Source of the DNA: Iodidimonas nitroreducens
Lineage (GTDB): Bacteria > Pseudomonadota > Alphaproteobacteria > Sphingomonadales > Rhodothalassiaceae
Direction of reading: 5' to 3'
DNA length: 47,879 nt
NCBI GenBank assembly: GCA_000710935.1
Contig: BAYV01000024.1
Span: 1 to 47,879 of the forward strand
In this document: positions 34,240-39,079 of the stretch, in pieces
Layout: each line of letters begins with the position of its first letter
Numbering within the stretch: the first letter of the stretch is position 1
Position numbers and translations under genes: made by a program
Notes under the pieces: generated by a model
The model's input: the letters and a program-made list of their open reading frames with translations, nothing else
What the model was told of the DNA's origin: nothing
Database searches by the model: none

Positions 34240-34506
34240 CATAAGTGGGATCAAGGCCGGGTCGCCTTCCCTTTTCCGCGCCTTGTAAGGTGCGGTGATA
34301 TGCCGGCACTTTCGAGCGACCGGTGCGCCCATCAGCGTCGGTGATAGGATTATACATGAAATCACGGCTTTTCGCACCCCGATTTTAGACGCAAAAATGC
34401 ACCATCAGACTTAAAAAGCGCTATCATCCATCGCCCTGATGAGTAAGGGACACAGATCGAAGGCTTGCAATCAAACCGGCTCCCTTGGTAATTTGTAGAG
34501 ATGATC

Positions 34507-35112
34507 ATGAACACACGCATAATGAGAACTCTGGCACTCCTTTTCCTCATGGGGATGGTGGGAGCCTGTGCCGGGCCGCAATTCAAGGCTGAGGTGGTGC
34601 GCTTCCACACGGCACAGATCGATGCAACCAATGGCCGAACCATCACCATCAAGCCCGCCCGCAAAGAGCTTGAAACATTGGAATTTGGCGCCATTGCCGA
34701 AATGCTGGGGGCCGAGCTCGAAAAGCACGGCTTCAGCCCGGCAGGTGATCAGCCCCCCGAGATCATCGCCGAACTTGATTATATCAACAGCCCGGCGGCG
34801 GCAGCGCCCAAAGATCAAGGCACGATCAGCATCGGTGGCGGCAGCTTTGGCCGCAGGGGGGGCATTGGCGGCGGCGTCAGCTTCCCCGTTGGCGATGATG
34901 AGCCTGAAACCGTGTTTCGCCGCCGCCTTGAACTGGTTTTGATCGATGCCGCCAGCGGCAACAGGATCTGGGAAGGCCGGGCCCTATCCACCGGGCGGGT
35001 GGATGATAAAACACGCATCATCCCGCTTTTGGCACGGGCCCTTTTGCAGGATTTTCCCGGCCCTTCAGGCCGCACGACACAGGTCACCCTGAACCCTGAT
35101 CCCGGTTCCTGA
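34507..35112 (+). CDS. Putative DUF4136-like lipoprotein
   Basis: The signal sequence ends in a lipobox (GMVGAC, lipidated Cys near residue 21), predicting an outer- or inner-membrane lipoprotein of about 200 residues. ATGs at 34501, 34507 and 34522 are all possible; 34507 has gtagag at usable distance. The mature region carries TITIKPARKELETLEF and FGAIAEMLGAELEKHGF, then a Gly-rich loop (GGGSFGRRGGIGGG) and RRLELVLIDAASGNRIWEGRA. That pattern resembles the DUF4136 lipoproteins, of unknown function. It precedes the M14 peptidase by 110 bp in the same direction. Confidence 0.78.
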   Translation: MNTRIMRTLALLFLMGMVGACAGPQFKAEVVRFHTAQIDATNGRTITIKPARKELETLEFGAIAEMLGAELEKHGFSPAGDQPPEIIAELDYINSPAAAAPKDQGTISIGGGSFGRRGGIGGGVSFPVGDDEPETVFRRRLELVLIDAASGNRIWEGRALSTGRVDDKTRIIPLLARALLQDFPGPSGRTTQVTLNPDPGS

Positions 35113-35222: not shown

Positions 35223-36350
35223 ATGGATATCACCAGCAATTTCGACGGCGGGAATATTGAAGTTCTCGGCCCCGGCGGCCCCCACAGAATTCGTCTGGCC
35301 ATAAAAAAGGATCATCAATCGGATTTTTTCCAGTGGTTTTATTTCCGTGCCACCGGTGCCCTGCGGGCCGATTGCCGCATTCTGATCGAAAATGCATCGC
35401 AAAGCGCCTATCCCGATGGCTGGCACAATTATAATGTAGTGGCATCCTATGATCGCCAAACATGGTTTCGCGTGCCCACGGAATATGATGGCACAAGGCT
35501 GATCATCAATCATCGGCCGGAATATGATGTGGTGTGGTATGCTACCTTCGCCCCTTATTCCATGGAGCGTCATGCCGATCTGATTGCCAGTGCATCGGTC
35601 AATCCTTTGGTCCGCATCAGATCCATTGGCCAAAGCCTCGATGGCCAGGATATCGATATGATCGAAGTGGGCAGCGGCGGCGGACAAGAAGGCAAAAGAA
35701 TCTGGTTCATCGGTCGCCAGCATCCGGGGGAAACCATGGCCGAATGGTGGATGGAAGGCCTGCTTGATCGCCTTCTTGATACCGATGATCCGGTCACCCG
35801 CAGCCTGTTATCGAAGGCGCGTTTTTATATCATTCCCAATATGAACCCCGATGGATCACGGCGGGGGCATCTGCGCACCAATGCCGCCGGGGTCAATCTC
35901 AACCGGGTGTGGAATGATCCCGATGAGAAAAACAGCCCCGAGGTTTATTGGGCGCGGCGCAATATGGAACGTTTGGGCGTTGATTTTCATATGGATGTGC
36001 ATGGCGATGAAGCCCTGCCCTATAATTTTCTCGCCGGTTTCGAGGGCATCCCTTCGATCAATGAAAAGCAGTTGCGCCTGTATCATCGCTATCAGGCAAC
36101 TTTGGCCCGCTTGAGCCCGGATTTCCAAACCGAACATGGCTATCCCAAGGATGCCCCCGGCACATCCGATCTCAAGAAATGCACCGATTGGGTGGCGGAA
36201 CGATTCGGCTGCCCGGCCATGACTTTGGAAATGCCCTTCAAGGACAATGCCAATGATCCCGAGCCCACATTCGGCTGGTCGCCCGAGCGATCAAAGCATC
36301 TCGCCCGCCATTGCCTTGATGCCCTTCATGAACTGATCGACGATCTGTGA
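35223..36350 (+). CDS. M14 zinc carboxypeptidase, cytosolic-carboxypeptidase-like
   Basis: The 375-residue enzyme has a beta-rich N-terminal domain (about 1-125) of the type found in cytosolic carboxypeptidases (CCP/AGBL), then an M14 catalytic domain. The zinc ligands are H167 and E170 (RQHPGETMAEWW) and H260 (DVHGDE). The catalytic glutamate is probably E336 in TLEMPFKD. FYIIPNMNPDGSRRGH and NAAGVNLNR are conserved substrate-pocket segments. There is no signal peptide, so it acts in the cytosol. Related enzymes remove C-terminal amino acids, often glutamate, from proteins or peptides. It precedes dedA by 25 bp. Confidence 0.9.
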   Translation: MDITSNFDGGNIEVLGPGGPHRIRLAIKKDHQSDFFQWFYFRATGALRADCRILIENASQSAYPDGWHNYNVVASYDRQTWFRVPTEYDGTRLIINHRPEYDVVWYATFAPYSMERHADLIASASVNPLVRIRSIGQSLDGQDIDMIEVGSGGGQEGKRIWFIGRQHPGETMAEWWMEGLLDRLLDTDDPVTRSLLSKARFYIIPNMNPDGSRRGHLRTNAAGVNLNRVWNDPDEKNSPEVYWARRNMERLGVDFHMDVHGDEALPYNFLAGFEGIPSINEKQLRLYHRYQATLARLSPDFQTEHGYPKDAPGTSDLKKCTDWVAERFGCPAMTLEMPFKDNANDPEPTFGWSPERSKHLARHCLDALHELIDDL

Positions 36351-36375
36351 GGCTTGGCATGAAAAAGGGCTGACC

Positions 36376-36990
36376 ATGGATTTCGATTGGGCGCTCAGGA
36401 TCATGGAGCATCTGGCGGGCCAGCCTTTGCTGTTCATCGCCCTCGCCATCGGGCTGAGCTTCATCTCTGAAGATGCGGTGACCGTGGGCACCGCCCTTCT
36501 GGCCGCACAGGGCCTGATCGGCTGGCCTTTGGGCTTCCTCGCCGTGAACATCGCGATCATTCTGGGCGATGGGGCCCTTTATGGCGCAGGCGCCCTGGCG
36601 GCCCGCTACCGCTTCATGCGCAGGCTGGTGGCCACGCGCCGCATCTATCAAACCAAACGCTGGGTGGAACAAAGGCTGGGGCCCATTCTGCTGGCCACCC
36701 GCTTCATGCCCGGCACCCGCTTTCCCACCTATACGGCCAGCGGCTTTTTCGGCTTCTCCTTTCCTTTCTTCATCGCCATCCTCAGCCTGGGCTCGGTTTT
36801 ATGGACCGGCCTTGTGTTCATCGTGATCTTTTATGCCGGGAAGCCCTTTCTCGATGCCCTTGGTCCATGGAAATGGCTGGGGGCGATCATCATTTTATTG
36901 TTTGGCTTGGTTGTTCCGCATTTTATTGGCCCCATATGTGCGCGGATATTCGGGGTTCGCCCCCTGCCTGAGGATCACCATAGATCATGA
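36376..36990 (+). CDS. DedA/VTT-family membrane protein
   Basis: DedA proteins are inner-membrane proteins linked to lipid (undecaprenyl-phosphate or phosphatidylethanolamine) translocation. The 204-residue protein has the re-entrant layout and family residues: acidic pair E32-D33 (SFISEDA), D65 (ILGDGALYG), and the basic motif RFMPGTRFPTYTASG at 109-123 with R109 and R115. The stop overlaps the ATP-grasp start in ATGA (36987-36990), indicating coupled translation. The M14 peptidase lies 25 bp upstream. Confidence 0.9.
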   Translation: MDFDWALRIMEHLAGQPLLFIALAIGLSFISEDAVTVGTALLAAQGLIGWPLGFLAVNIAIILGDGALYGAGALAARYRFMRRLVATRRIYQTKRWVEQRLGPILLATRFMPGTRFPTYTASGFFGFSFPFFIAILSLGSVLWTGLVFIVIFYAGKPFLDALGPWKWLGAIIILLFGLVVPHFIGPICARIFGVRPLPEDHHRS

Positions 36991-38132
36991 CTGCACCCCT
37001 GATGACTGCCCCTGAAAAGTCTGACACTGAACGTCCCATAGCGGCCCCCCATGCCAATATGCCCGCCCTTGATGAAAGCGCGCAAAAGCTGTCGTTTTTT
37101 GAATTCTGGCCCCAGTGGCTGTTTTATACTCCGGTAATCCTTTGGTGGCTTTGGCTCAGCCTGCGCTATGGCGGCCCCGCCTTGCCCACGGCGGCCAATC
37201 CGGGCTTTCCCAATGGCGGCTTTGTGGGGGAAAGCAAGGCGCAGGTGTTCTCGCGCTTTGGTGTGAAGGCAAAAGCCGCCCTCGCCCCGTTCATCTGCTT
37301 TTGTGCCGATCATCAGGCCAAAGATCAAAGCCTGAGCGTGATGGCCGAGGCGCGGGGATCGGGCCTTGATTATCCGCTGGTCGCCAAGCCCGATATGGGC
37401 TGCCGGGGGGCGGGCGTGCAGGTGGTGCGCAATGATCGCGATCTTGACCGCTATATCGCAAGCTTTCCCGATGGGGCCCGGATCGTCTTGCAAAAGCTGG
37501 TGGATCAGCCGGGCGAGGTGGGGCTTTTTTATGTGCGGTCGCCATCGCAAAAGCAGGGGCGGCTGTTTTCTATGACCTTGAAATATTTTCCCACGATCAT
37601 CGGCAATGGGCGGGATCATCTGGAACGCCTGATCATGGATGATCCCCGTGCCGGGCAATTGCCCCATCTTTATCTGAAGCGAAATGCAACCCGGCTCGAT
37701 GAAATCATCCCCAAAGGCGAGCCCGTGCGCCTCGCTTTTGCCGGAAGCCATTCAAAGGGCGCGATTTTCCGTGATGGCCGCCCCTATATCACCGAAGCTT
37801 TGACCCAAGCCATCGACGCACTGGCCCGCGATATCGATGGTTTTTATATCGGTCGCTTTGATGTGCGCTTCAGTGATTTCAAGGCCCTGCAAGAGGGCCG
37901 CGATTTCACCATCATCGAGGTCAATGGCGCGGGCGGCGAAGCCACCCATATCTGGGATTCGCGGATGACCCTTAAAAAAGCCTATGGCGATCTGTTTGAG
38001 CAATTCTCGATGCTGTTTGCCATTGGCCGGGACAATCGCAGGCGCGGCGCACCGCCCATCAATCTATTGGAATTTTATCGGGCATGGCGCCACGAAGCCC
38101 GGCTGGTGCGCGGCTATCCGCCCACGGATTGA
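36987..38132 (+). CDS. Membrane-anchored ATP-grasp enzyme
   Basis: The protein has 381 residues. A Pro-rich start is followed by a hydrophobic, Trp-rich segment (about 42-60), probably a single membrane anchor. The ATP-grasp core has DYPLVAKPDMGCRGAGVQVV (128-147) as the lysine and glycine-rich lid, YIGRFDVRF near 292, and the metal-binding end FTIIEVNGAGGEATHIWD with E311 and N313. ATP-grasp enzymes join a carboxylate to an amine using ATP; the substrate is unknown. Coupling to dedA points to an envelope or lipid-linked substrate. The 3' end overlaps the convergent DUF2336 gene by 19 bp. Confidence 0.85.
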   Translation: MTAPLMTAPEKSDTERPIAAPHANMPALDESAQKLSFFEFWPQWLFYTPVILWWLWLSLRYGGPALPTAANPGFPNGGFVGESKAQVFSRFGVKAKAALAPFICFCADHQAKDQSLSVMAEARGSGLDYPLVAKPDMGCRGAGVQVVRNDRDLDRYIASFPDGARIVLQKLVDQPGEVGLFYVRSPSQKQGRLFSMTLKYFPTIIGNGRDHLERLIMDDPRAGQLPHLYLKRNATRLDEIIPKGEPVRLAFAGSHSKGAIFRDGRPYITEALTQAIDALARDIDGFYIGRFDVRFSDFKALQEGRDFTIIEVNGAGGEATHIWDSRMTLKKAYGDLFEQFSMLFAIGRDNRRRGAPPINLLEFYRAWRHEARLVRGYPPTD

Positions 38133-39079
38133 TTGACGCCCATTTCCCACGCCCCCAAAAGCCGGGTGGCCTGTTCATCGCGATAGCCCGCCCGGCGGAT
38201 CAGCTTCAGCACATGGGTGGCGCTATGGGCGCTGATAATCCGCTCGATGGTGATGATATCGATGCCGGTTTTATAGGCCATCACACTTTCAAAAAAGCGC
38301 AATCCGCCGCGCTTGGTAATATCGACCAGATAGCGATCGGTCAGCGCCCCGCGCTGTTCAAGCTGCCGGATATGTTCATTGAGCGCCCCCCGGCTTGCCC
38401 CTTCCAACCATTTCAAAACGGTATCGGCCCGGCTTGCGGCGGCCAAGGCATCGGCTTTTTCAGCCGACAGATCATAATGCGCGATTAAGCCATCACGGCA
38501 GGCCTGCGACACATGATCCACCAGCCGCTGAACGATTTCGAGGGGCAGATCCCCCCGGCGGCTCAGATGATCCATCATCGCCCGATTACCGCTGAAGCGA
38601 TTGAGGATGGGGCCACAGGCGCGTTCGATTTCGGCACCGGGATTGCGGATCAGATAGGTCACCGGCCGTTCGCCGCCGGTTTCCGCAATGGCCACCGCCA
38701 CGATATCGGGCACATGGGATCGCCGGGCGATGGCAATCTGCGCATGTTCATCCAATTCACGGGCCAGCCGCGCCAGATCGTCTTCTTTAAAAACAGAGAC
38801 GTGCTGCAAAAAAGGCGAGGATACATCTTCGACATCGCGGGCAATTTTCTCGGCCAGATCAAGGGGCAGATAACCGGCCCGGCGCAATTCAAATGCCAGA
38901 GTTTGGCGCACTTCCACGCTCAGATCATGGGCAAGGGTGCGGGCCACGTCTTCCACGACCTGCCGCTCGCCCGGGTCGTGCTTTTCAAGGAGAAACAGCC
39001 CGACCTTGCGCGCCAGAACAACTTTTTCAAGCTGTGCGCGGCTCGATGACGGGGGCAATCTCAATCCCTTGAACTCCAT
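38114..39079 (-). CDS. DUF2336 protein
   Basis: DUF2336 is an alphaproteobacterial helical family of unknown function. The 321 residues are all alpha-helical, with HEAT-like repeats such as DLSVEVRQTLAFELRRAGYLPLDLAEKIARD near 51-81 and IARRSHVPDIVAVAIAETG near 116-134. There are no membrane segments or signal peptide. The segment IARDVEDVSSPFLQHV is clearly similar to part of the PAS protein encoded at 41037-42377. Its last 19 bp overlap the convergent ATP-grasp gene, which may cause antisense interference. Confidence 0.87.
   Translation of the reverse strand: MEFKGLRLPPSSSRAQLEKVVLARKVGLFLLEKHDPGERQVVEDVARTLAHDLSVEVRQTLAFELRRAGYLPLDLAEKIARDVEDVSSPFLQHVSVFKEDDLARLARELDEHAQIAIARRSHVPDIVAVAIAETGGERPVTYLIRNPGAEIERACGPILNRFSGNRAMMDHLSRRGDLPLEIVQRLVDHVSQACRDGLIAHYDLSAEKADALAAASRADTVLKWLEGASRGALNEHIRQLEQRGALTDRYLVDITKRGGLRFFESVMAYKTGIDIITIERIISAHSATHVLKLIRRAGYRDEQATRLLGAWEMGVNQSVGG

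Follow-up and report, generated by a model that had tools for sequence, protein, structure and literature searches.

In MprF, an aminoacyl-phospholipid synthase and flippase, lipid modification uses aminoacyl-tRNA, and the flippase has a fold other than that of the DedA/VTT proteins. How ornithine-type lipids cross the inner membrane is, to our knowledge, an open question. Passages of PMC12493201 and PMC12186959 describe ornithine lipids as widespread phosphorus-free membrane lipids; the relevant parts of PMC4484230 and PMC12493201 report that Gluconobacter makes the ornithine-taurine lipid cerilipin, and an excerpt of PMC12186959 that Vibrio cholerae has two functional OlsF enzymes, one of them encoded last in a putative four-gene operon. 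For flavolipin, a glycine-serine lipid, the pathway is given as unknown in a section of PMC10191378, which suggests the addition of serine to a glycine lipid, and for two of the three DedA subfamilies the cargo is called unsettled in part of PMC10127716. Here we analyze a stretch of 47,879 nucleotides (nt) from Iodidimonas nitroreducens (GCA_000710935.1, contig BAYV01000024.1, forward strand), called the window below, in which a gene for a DedA membrane protein is followed on the same strand by a gene for an ATP-grasp ligase. Across genomes these two genes are paired and sometimes fused, the sampled paired DedAs form one clade, the catalytic-type residues of the ligase are intact, and the pair is linked to, and co-occurs with, genes of the ornithine-lipid (Ols) type. 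No description of a DedA/ATP-grasp pair was found in the open-access literature searched. We give a probability of about 0.5 to the reading that DedA and ATP-grasp are one functional unit in aminolipid metabolism, in which the ligase would extend the head group of a lipid that DedA would flip.

The pairing was followed in two sets of loci. Set one holds the best 80 of at least 580 confirmed ATP-grasp relatives in named genome contigs, with flanks of up to 10 kb on each side; its gene orders omit L101, L102, L112 and L118, for which the ATP-grasp open reading frame (ORF) was not picked. DedA lies upstream of ATP-grasp on the same strand in 75 of the 78 testable loci, a count that includes near-duplicates (L095 and L097; L091 and L094 look alike) and is therefore not one of independent events. 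The distance is below 1.5 kb in 70 loci, in three of which the two are fused into one protein (L079, L091, L094), and 2.1–3.1 kb in five. No DedA was found within the examined flanks of L086, L089 and L096, and L098 and L107 could not be judged because the contig begins at or within the gene. The second set comprises 40 loci, 30 of them alphaproteobacterial and overlapping set one (L070 and L261, for example, each lie on a contig of 599,286 bases), and 10 from other classes that are apparently absent from set one. For 36 of the 40 loci of this set DedA is either fused, as at L020, L257, L265 and L267, or at most 1.1 kb away (centre to centre); it was not found near ATP-grasp at L253, L266, L273 and L281. 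The annotation of Azospirillum lipoferum 4B likewise shows a fused gene, with profile matches; in Paracoccus denitrificans PD1222 a nearby DedA is on the strand opposite to ATP-grasp, and in Komagataeibacter xylinus E25 no DedA is near ATP-grasp. A match was found in 28 plasmid records, of which seven regions were examined, five with DedA (one on the opposite strand, one fused) and three with an Ols-like gene. DedA and ATP-grasp are a conserved pair, and these loci and fusions bear out the proposal of a first-pass annotation of the window that a bond-forming enzyme is coupled to a membrane protein.

The ATP-grasp protein passes no Pfam or NCBIfam cut-off (best matches PF02222, 7.2e-4, and cyanophycin synthetase, 4.1e-6), and it stays below the curated cut-offs for RimK, cyanophycin synthetase and Ddl, with 25 of 850 bits for TIGR02068 and 16 of 143 bits for TIGR00768. 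Its predicted structure is an ATP-grasp fold (predicted local distance difference test score, pLDDT, 91.2; predicted template modelling score, pTM, 0.89), closest in structural comparison of the model to cyanophycin synthetase 7txv (Z 15.5, root-mean-square deviation 4.5 over 272 residues). The next folds listed are LysX/ArgX, carbamoyl-phosphate synthetase, glutathione synthetase, RimK, synapsin and Ddl, and of these LysX/ArgX, glutathione synthetase, RimK and Ddl form amide bonds; the substrates of the nearest folds we take to be amino-acid or peptide carboxylates. Within the motifs GGFVGESK (K84), KPD (K134), D292 and E311-x-N313, all 46 aligned family members and all 40 rows of the second set keep the residues K84, K134, D292, E311 and N313. 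By analogy, K84 and K134 would be nucleotide-binding lysines, and D292, E311 and N313 Mg-binding acidic and asparagine residues, roles assigned by alignment for all except K84, which was placed by inference. The N-terminal membrane segment that had been noted for this protein stands as a helix at about residues 43–61. It is on the polar side for a standard transmembrane helix, with Kyte-Doolittle maxima of 0.87 in the window protein and 1.41 in the family, and in 43 of 46 family members it is the most interface-seeking 19-mer of the protein when ranked on an interface scale, so that, judged from the sequence, an interfacial aromatic helix is likelier.

RimK-like scores and fold would also suit an enzyme that modifies a protein or small peptide at the membrane, in the manner of RimK or of graspetide ligases, with DedA in a structural or accessory role. 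Two recurrent neighbours could be read in the same way, a DoxX-like gene in 31 of 80 set-one loci, one representative of which matches HvfX weakly (E 0.0012, 19 bits against a cut-off of 80), and a YHS gene in 23 of 80. However, no precursor-peptide gene recurs in the gene orders, which take in ORFs of at least 70 aa in set one and of at least 110 aa in five loci, and lipid-synthesis genes recur instead. We regard a protein or peptide substrate as quite unlikely.

The DedA protein passes PF09335 (VTT) with 43.2 bits against a cut-off of 33.9 (E 6.6e-11) and has, taken alone, no sequence match in the PDB at E ≤ 1. In a tree of 91 rows, from which proteins of 300 aa or more were omitted and for which 40 regions were taken from among the VTT matches, the 18 sampled paired DedAs form one clade (support 100/98). 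This clade sits within a 24-row branch (97/91) together with E. coli YohD, YabI, DedA, YghB and YqjA, and is separate from YdjX/YdjZ and YqaA. Given the conserved pairing, the fusions and the single clade of sampled proteins, the DedA that accompanies the ligase is a subfamily of its own that travels with it. In an alignment of 18 rows including YghB, E32-D33 lie at the first re-entrant tip, where D33 aligns with YghB D51 and E32 is extra, and R109 and R115 lie at the second, where they are invariant (YghB R130 and R136); no acidic residue aligns with YghB E39.

The two arginines have a bearing on an undecaprenyl-phosphate (C55-P) route, in which this DedA would be the C55-P flippase of the lineage and ATP-grasp would modify a lipid-carrier-linked envelope precursor or sugar. 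An arginine pair at the second re-entrant tip is tied to C55-P binding in part of PMC10127716, and the clade groups with the COG0586-type DedAs of E. coli (an assignment taken in part from that paper). By motifs, this is also the only COG0586-type protein among the four VTT proteins of the genome, and none of the 40 relatives has a DUF368 flippase. The missing E39 equivalent speaks against C55-P as cargo, and the route has no place for the linkage to OlsF and OlsB seen in several lineages. A UppP/BacA cluster near the pair in 19 of 80 set-one loci would fit it, yet shares the strand of the pair in only 15 of the 19; the BacA match comes from one representative, and 18 of these loci are titled Acetobacteraceae or its genera and one 'Proteobacteria bacterium'. 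Furthermore, several relatives (for example G299, G303, G314 and G320) lack both the paired DedA and any canonical COG0586 DedA, so that the paired DedA is not the sole possible C55-P flippase in the order, and the idea that it is the only one there is weakened. On this balance the C55-P route seems unlikely. As an observation apart, in those four genomes neither a DUF368 flippase nor a COG0586-type DedA was found.

Two clusters of neighbouring genes connect the pair with ornithine-lipid synthesis. Cluster c15 belongs to Acetyltransf_5, and its best NCBIfam model is ornithine N-acyltransferase OlsB (140 bits, cut-off 350), the two scanned betaproteobacterial representatives scoring 140 and 143 bits to NF052554. 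For cluster c42 the matches are to OlsF, in its O-acyltransferase half (165 bits), and to GlsA, an enzyme of glycine-lipid synthesis (105 bits, cut-off 260). Two representatives of each cluster were scanned with NCBIfam, and home-made profiles were built from both clusters. In set one the OlsB-like gene occurs upstream, on the opposite strand, in 12 betaproteobacterial loci, and the acyltransferase resembling GlsA and the N-terminal half of OlsF occurs downstream, on the same strand, in six alphaproteobacterial loci. At L079, from a deltaproteobacterial metagenome-assembled genome, both profiles match a single ORF 111 bp after the fused DedA-ATP-grasp gene; its product is OlsF-like, with O- and N-acyltransferase domains and a score of 390.5 bits (cut-off 620) along almost the entire model. 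The window's genome has an OlsB-like gene as well (NF052555, 313.3 bits, cut-off 320). Acetyltransf_5 also goes with ATP-grasp across genomes: it occurs in 24 of 25 ATP-grasp genomes vs 164 of 264 others in a class sample (p 2.8e-4; the lone genome without it, G223, is 57% complete) and in 12 of 12 relatives with ATP-grasp vs 16 of 28 without (p 0.007), p-values that ignore phylogeny and come from two samples sharing some genomes.

The linkage was then tested on genomes that had not gone into the ornithine-lipid idea, drawn from a phylum sample of 398. Sixty-eight of these 398 match the ATP-grasp protein at E ≤ 0.001, 14 over its full length (>400 bits) and 54 partially (<41 bits), the latter being taken as general ATP-grasp cross-hits and left unused. 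Ten of the 14 full-length matches lie outside the class, and in all ten genomes an OlsF-like ORF is found on the same strand at 1.5–3.8 kb from ATP-grasp (centre to centre); these genomes belong to five families, with six in one genus, and amount to at least five family-level observations. The ten ORFs, of 1740–1821 bp, match both the OlsB and the O-acyltransferase profile and were called from these home-made profiles; they lie upstream of ATP-grasp in L257 and downstream in the other nine. DedA is present in nine of the ten and not in L253. Gene-by-gene order was examined in five of the ten loci: L247, L252 and L256 have DedA, ATP-grasp, DinB-like, NRDE-like, YHS, DoxX-like (not in L252) and OlsF, L253 has OlsF directly after ATP-grasp, and L257 has OlsF followed by the fused DedA-ATP-grasp gene. 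The labels DinB and NRDE were assigned by eye and draw on the representative of c19, through its Pfam match, and on the Salinivibrio annotation. On replicons of Photobacterium sp. GJ3 and Vibrio sp. THAF191d, DedA, ATP-grasp, YHS, DoxX-like and OlsF-like genes stand in a row, and on a Variovorax replicon an OlsB-like gene follows ATP-grasp by 9 bp on the same strand.

At the OlsF-linked loci both acylations are already encoded, and the nearest folds presumably use amino-acid or peptide carboxylates; both points tell against a role in which ATP-grasp would couple a fatty acid to an amino acid as an N-acyl amide, with DedA exporting the product. Linkage to aminolipid genes fits that role as well, and an ATP-grasp enzyme is named in acyl-histidine formation in part of PMC11631085. 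All in all, N-acyl amide synthesis looks very unlikely to us.

For the aminolipid reading, we infer a lipid substrate, the bond formed and flipping by DedA as follows. ATP-grasp would sit on the cytoplasmic face of the inner membrane through its aromatic N-terminal helix and, spending ATP, would activate a carboxylate as an acyl phosphate. The head group of an acyloxyacyl amino-acid lipid resembling ornithine lipids, supplied by OlsB/OlsA or by OlsF, would receive an amide bond from it; the ornithine carboxylate, for example, could be joined to taurine or a similar amine, or to an amino acid. Either this product or a precursor of it would then be flipped across the inner membrane by the paired DedA. 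More tentatively, at odds well below even, ATP-grasp may be the ligase still lacking for aminolipids with two residues, among them the ornithine-taurine lipid of Gluconobacter, and DedA an aminolipid flippase with a cargo other than undecaprenyl phosphate or a phospholipid. That lipid would need such a ligase, and the pair occurs in Gluconobacter (L111, L113, L117). If this were true, gamma-, beta- and deltaproteobacterial genomes would carry the genes for synthase, ligase and flippase near one another. A ligase-DedA pair beside an ornithine-lipid synthase makes the questions of the second-residue enzyme, of lipid transport and of DedA cargo testable. One genome of the window's genus (G289, 100% complete) has no ATP-grasp match and keeps M14 carboxypeptidase and three Acetyltransf_5 matches, a natural knock-out in which lipids could be compared.

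Several observations weigh against the aminolipid reading. In the 12 betaproteobacterial loci the OlsB-like gene runs opposite to the pair and hence is not co-transcribed with it. Within the examined flanks, 61 of the 80 set-one loci have no match to either profile, and the 30 alphaproteobacterial loci of the second set all lack an Ols-like gene nearby. In the window the pair has no ornithine-lipid gene next to it; the OlsB-like gene of this genome is on another contig. Salinivibrio has the pair and no Ols-like gene nearby, and at L253 and on the Variovorax replicon ATP-grasp stands beside an Ols-like gene with no DedA found nearby. The OlsF- and OlsB-like matches are below the NCBIfam equivalog cut-offs. 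The co-occurrence of Acetyltransf_5 with ATP-grasp is uncorrected for phylogeny and comes from partly overlapping samples, and the domain is common (188 of 289 genomes) and not specific to OlsB, with matches in E. coli. DedA retains the arginine pair tied to phosphate lipids, and ornithine lipids are without phosphate. The model of the fused protein has high local confidence and a pTM of 0.67, with scores below 50 in the linker (190–225), and leaves the packing of the two domains unfixed; its structural comparison returned ATP-grasp matches only, and the DedA part was barely covered. Finally, YHS, DoxX-like, DinB-like, NRDE-like and alpha/beta-hydrolase neighbours are left unexplained.

Upstream of DedA, the window encodes an M14 carboxypeptidase that matches Peptidase_M14_N (3.2e-39), Peptidase_M14 (3.7e-21) and, over its full length, the structure 3l2n (2.7e-124), with the motifs HPGE, VHGDE and TLEMPF conserved in the alignment with 3l2n. 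The first-pass annotation had assigned the three proteins to the M14 (cytosolic carboxypeptidase, CCP-like), DedA and ATP-grasp families, which these matches, the VTT match and the predicted fold respectively support, and had suggested a unit in which M14 could remove what ATP-grasp adds. Such a model agrees with the window and the same-genus genome G290, where M14 is adjacent on the same strand, and with five of the 40 second-set loci in which M14 is near (within 3.2 kb), all in the window's order. In set one, however, M14 lies within the flanks of only 11 of 80 loci (these span more than one titled order, L078 being titled Sphingomonadales), and in 10 of the 11 it is separated from DedA by other genes, most of them on the opposite strand; L047 is the one locus where the two adjoin. 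The first-pass annotation had named beforehand, as the finding that would tell against it, neighbourhoods in which M14 is usually apart from dedA and ATP-grasp, and such neighbourhoods are what this comparison shows.

In the class sample, strong M14 matches were found in 23 genomes and ATP-grasp in 25, with both in two (Fisher p = 1.0): the genome of the window, and G116, whose two genes lie on separate contigs. These counts leave out six weak M14 matches (G049, G174, G183, G270, G227 and G238; E 1e-4 to 1e-12), of which G227 and G238 are ATP-grasp genomes, and one partial ATP-grasp match that contains a stop (G218). Among the 40 relatives, 38 have M14 and 12 have ATP-grasp; 27 of the 28 without ATP-grasp retain M14, G291 shows the reverse, and in G292 the two genes are about 40 kb apart. 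The M14 gene is most likely a syntenic neighbour among relatives and a bystander to the system, and it was rejected as the partner of ATP-grasp in view of its rare proximity, the intervening genes and the class-wide independence. A pair of adding and removing enzymes is thus unsupported, since the M14 neighbourhood reflects synteny among relatives; that model is largely refuted, and we give it hardly any credence. What stands of the three-gene proposal is the coupling of DedA with ATP-grasp, a ligase with a membrane step and a membrane molecule as its likeliest substrate. The case illustrates that synteny among close relatives should not be taken for function. Between M14 and DedA we also observed, by eye, minus-strand aquaporin-like and arsenate-reductase-type phosphatase-like genes, both of them in L053, L054, L065 and L080 and one or both in L050, L060, L064 and L078.

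The coordinates of the ORFs confirm the earlier description of three same-strand genes, with a gap of 25 bp between M14 and DedA and an overlap of 4 bp between DedA and ATP-grasp. The first of these spacings varies, being 112 bp in G290 (locus L274) vs 25 bp in the window; in G290 an ORF that by eye resembles the DUF4136 gene precedes M14 too. The DUF2336 gene recurs at loci of relatives and is outside the system.

Table 1. Genes at the DedA/ATP-grasp locus of the window (window positions).
Feature	Position	Strand	Remarks
M14 carboxypeptidase, bacterial CCP-like	35223..36350	+	375 aa; ORF, Pfam and 3l2n alignment
DedA/VTT membrane protein, ATP-grasp-paired clade	36376..36990	+	204 aa; ORF, VTT match, tree
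ATP-grasp ligase, unnamed family	36987..38132	+	381 aa; ORF, fold model, conserved residues
DUF4136 lipoprotein-like gene	34501..35112	+	110 bp upstream of M14 gene
Convergent DUF2336 gene	38114..39079	-	downstream bound of unit; SpbR model below its cut-off

Other neighbours recur around the pair. YHS, DoxX-like, DinB-like and NRDE-like genes accompany the pair and an OlsF-like gene in L247, L252, L253, L256, L289 and L291, the by-eye labels DinB and NRDE covering the first four. An alpha/beta-hydrolase gene lies near the pair in 28 of 80 set-one loci (for example L083:4578-5444 and L075:8359-9231); with an N-terminus that looks by eye like a signal or lipoprotein sequence, its product is possibly a periplasmic lipid hydrolase. 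An AsmA-type gene upstream of the pair in L103, L108, L109 and L115 (titled Acetobacteraceae or Proteobacteria; Pfam match for L109 only) is of interest for lipid transfer to the outer membrane.

Compared with described systems, the window M14 protein is a full-length match to the bacterial CCP-like M14 enzymes (3l2n, 4b6z, 3k2k, 4a37) and is a neighbour only. Cyanophycin synthetase, RimK and LysX/ArgX share the ATP-grasp fold with the ligase (Z from 15.5 to about 12–14) and its catalytic-type residues, whereas no cut-off of these families is passed and the ligase has an aromatic helical N-terminus and a membrane partner. The C55-P flippases of COG0586 (UptA, YghB, YqjA) resemble the paired DedAs in tree position and in the two arginines of the second tip; the paired DedAs differ in being a clade of their own without an equivalent of E39, and from UptA also in that the fused L079 protein scores 27 of 250 bits to model NF052604. 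Genes similar to OlsB/OlsA, OlsF and GlsA/GlsB adjoin the pair in several lineages, but the pair itself resembles neither acyltransferase and would act after or beside these synthases. As in MprF, an enzyme that modifies head groups appears to be coupled with a flippase that would move what it makes, at times within a single protein; unlike MprF, the parts here are an ATP-grasp ligase and a DedA/VTT protein, linked to genes of the ornithine-lipid type.

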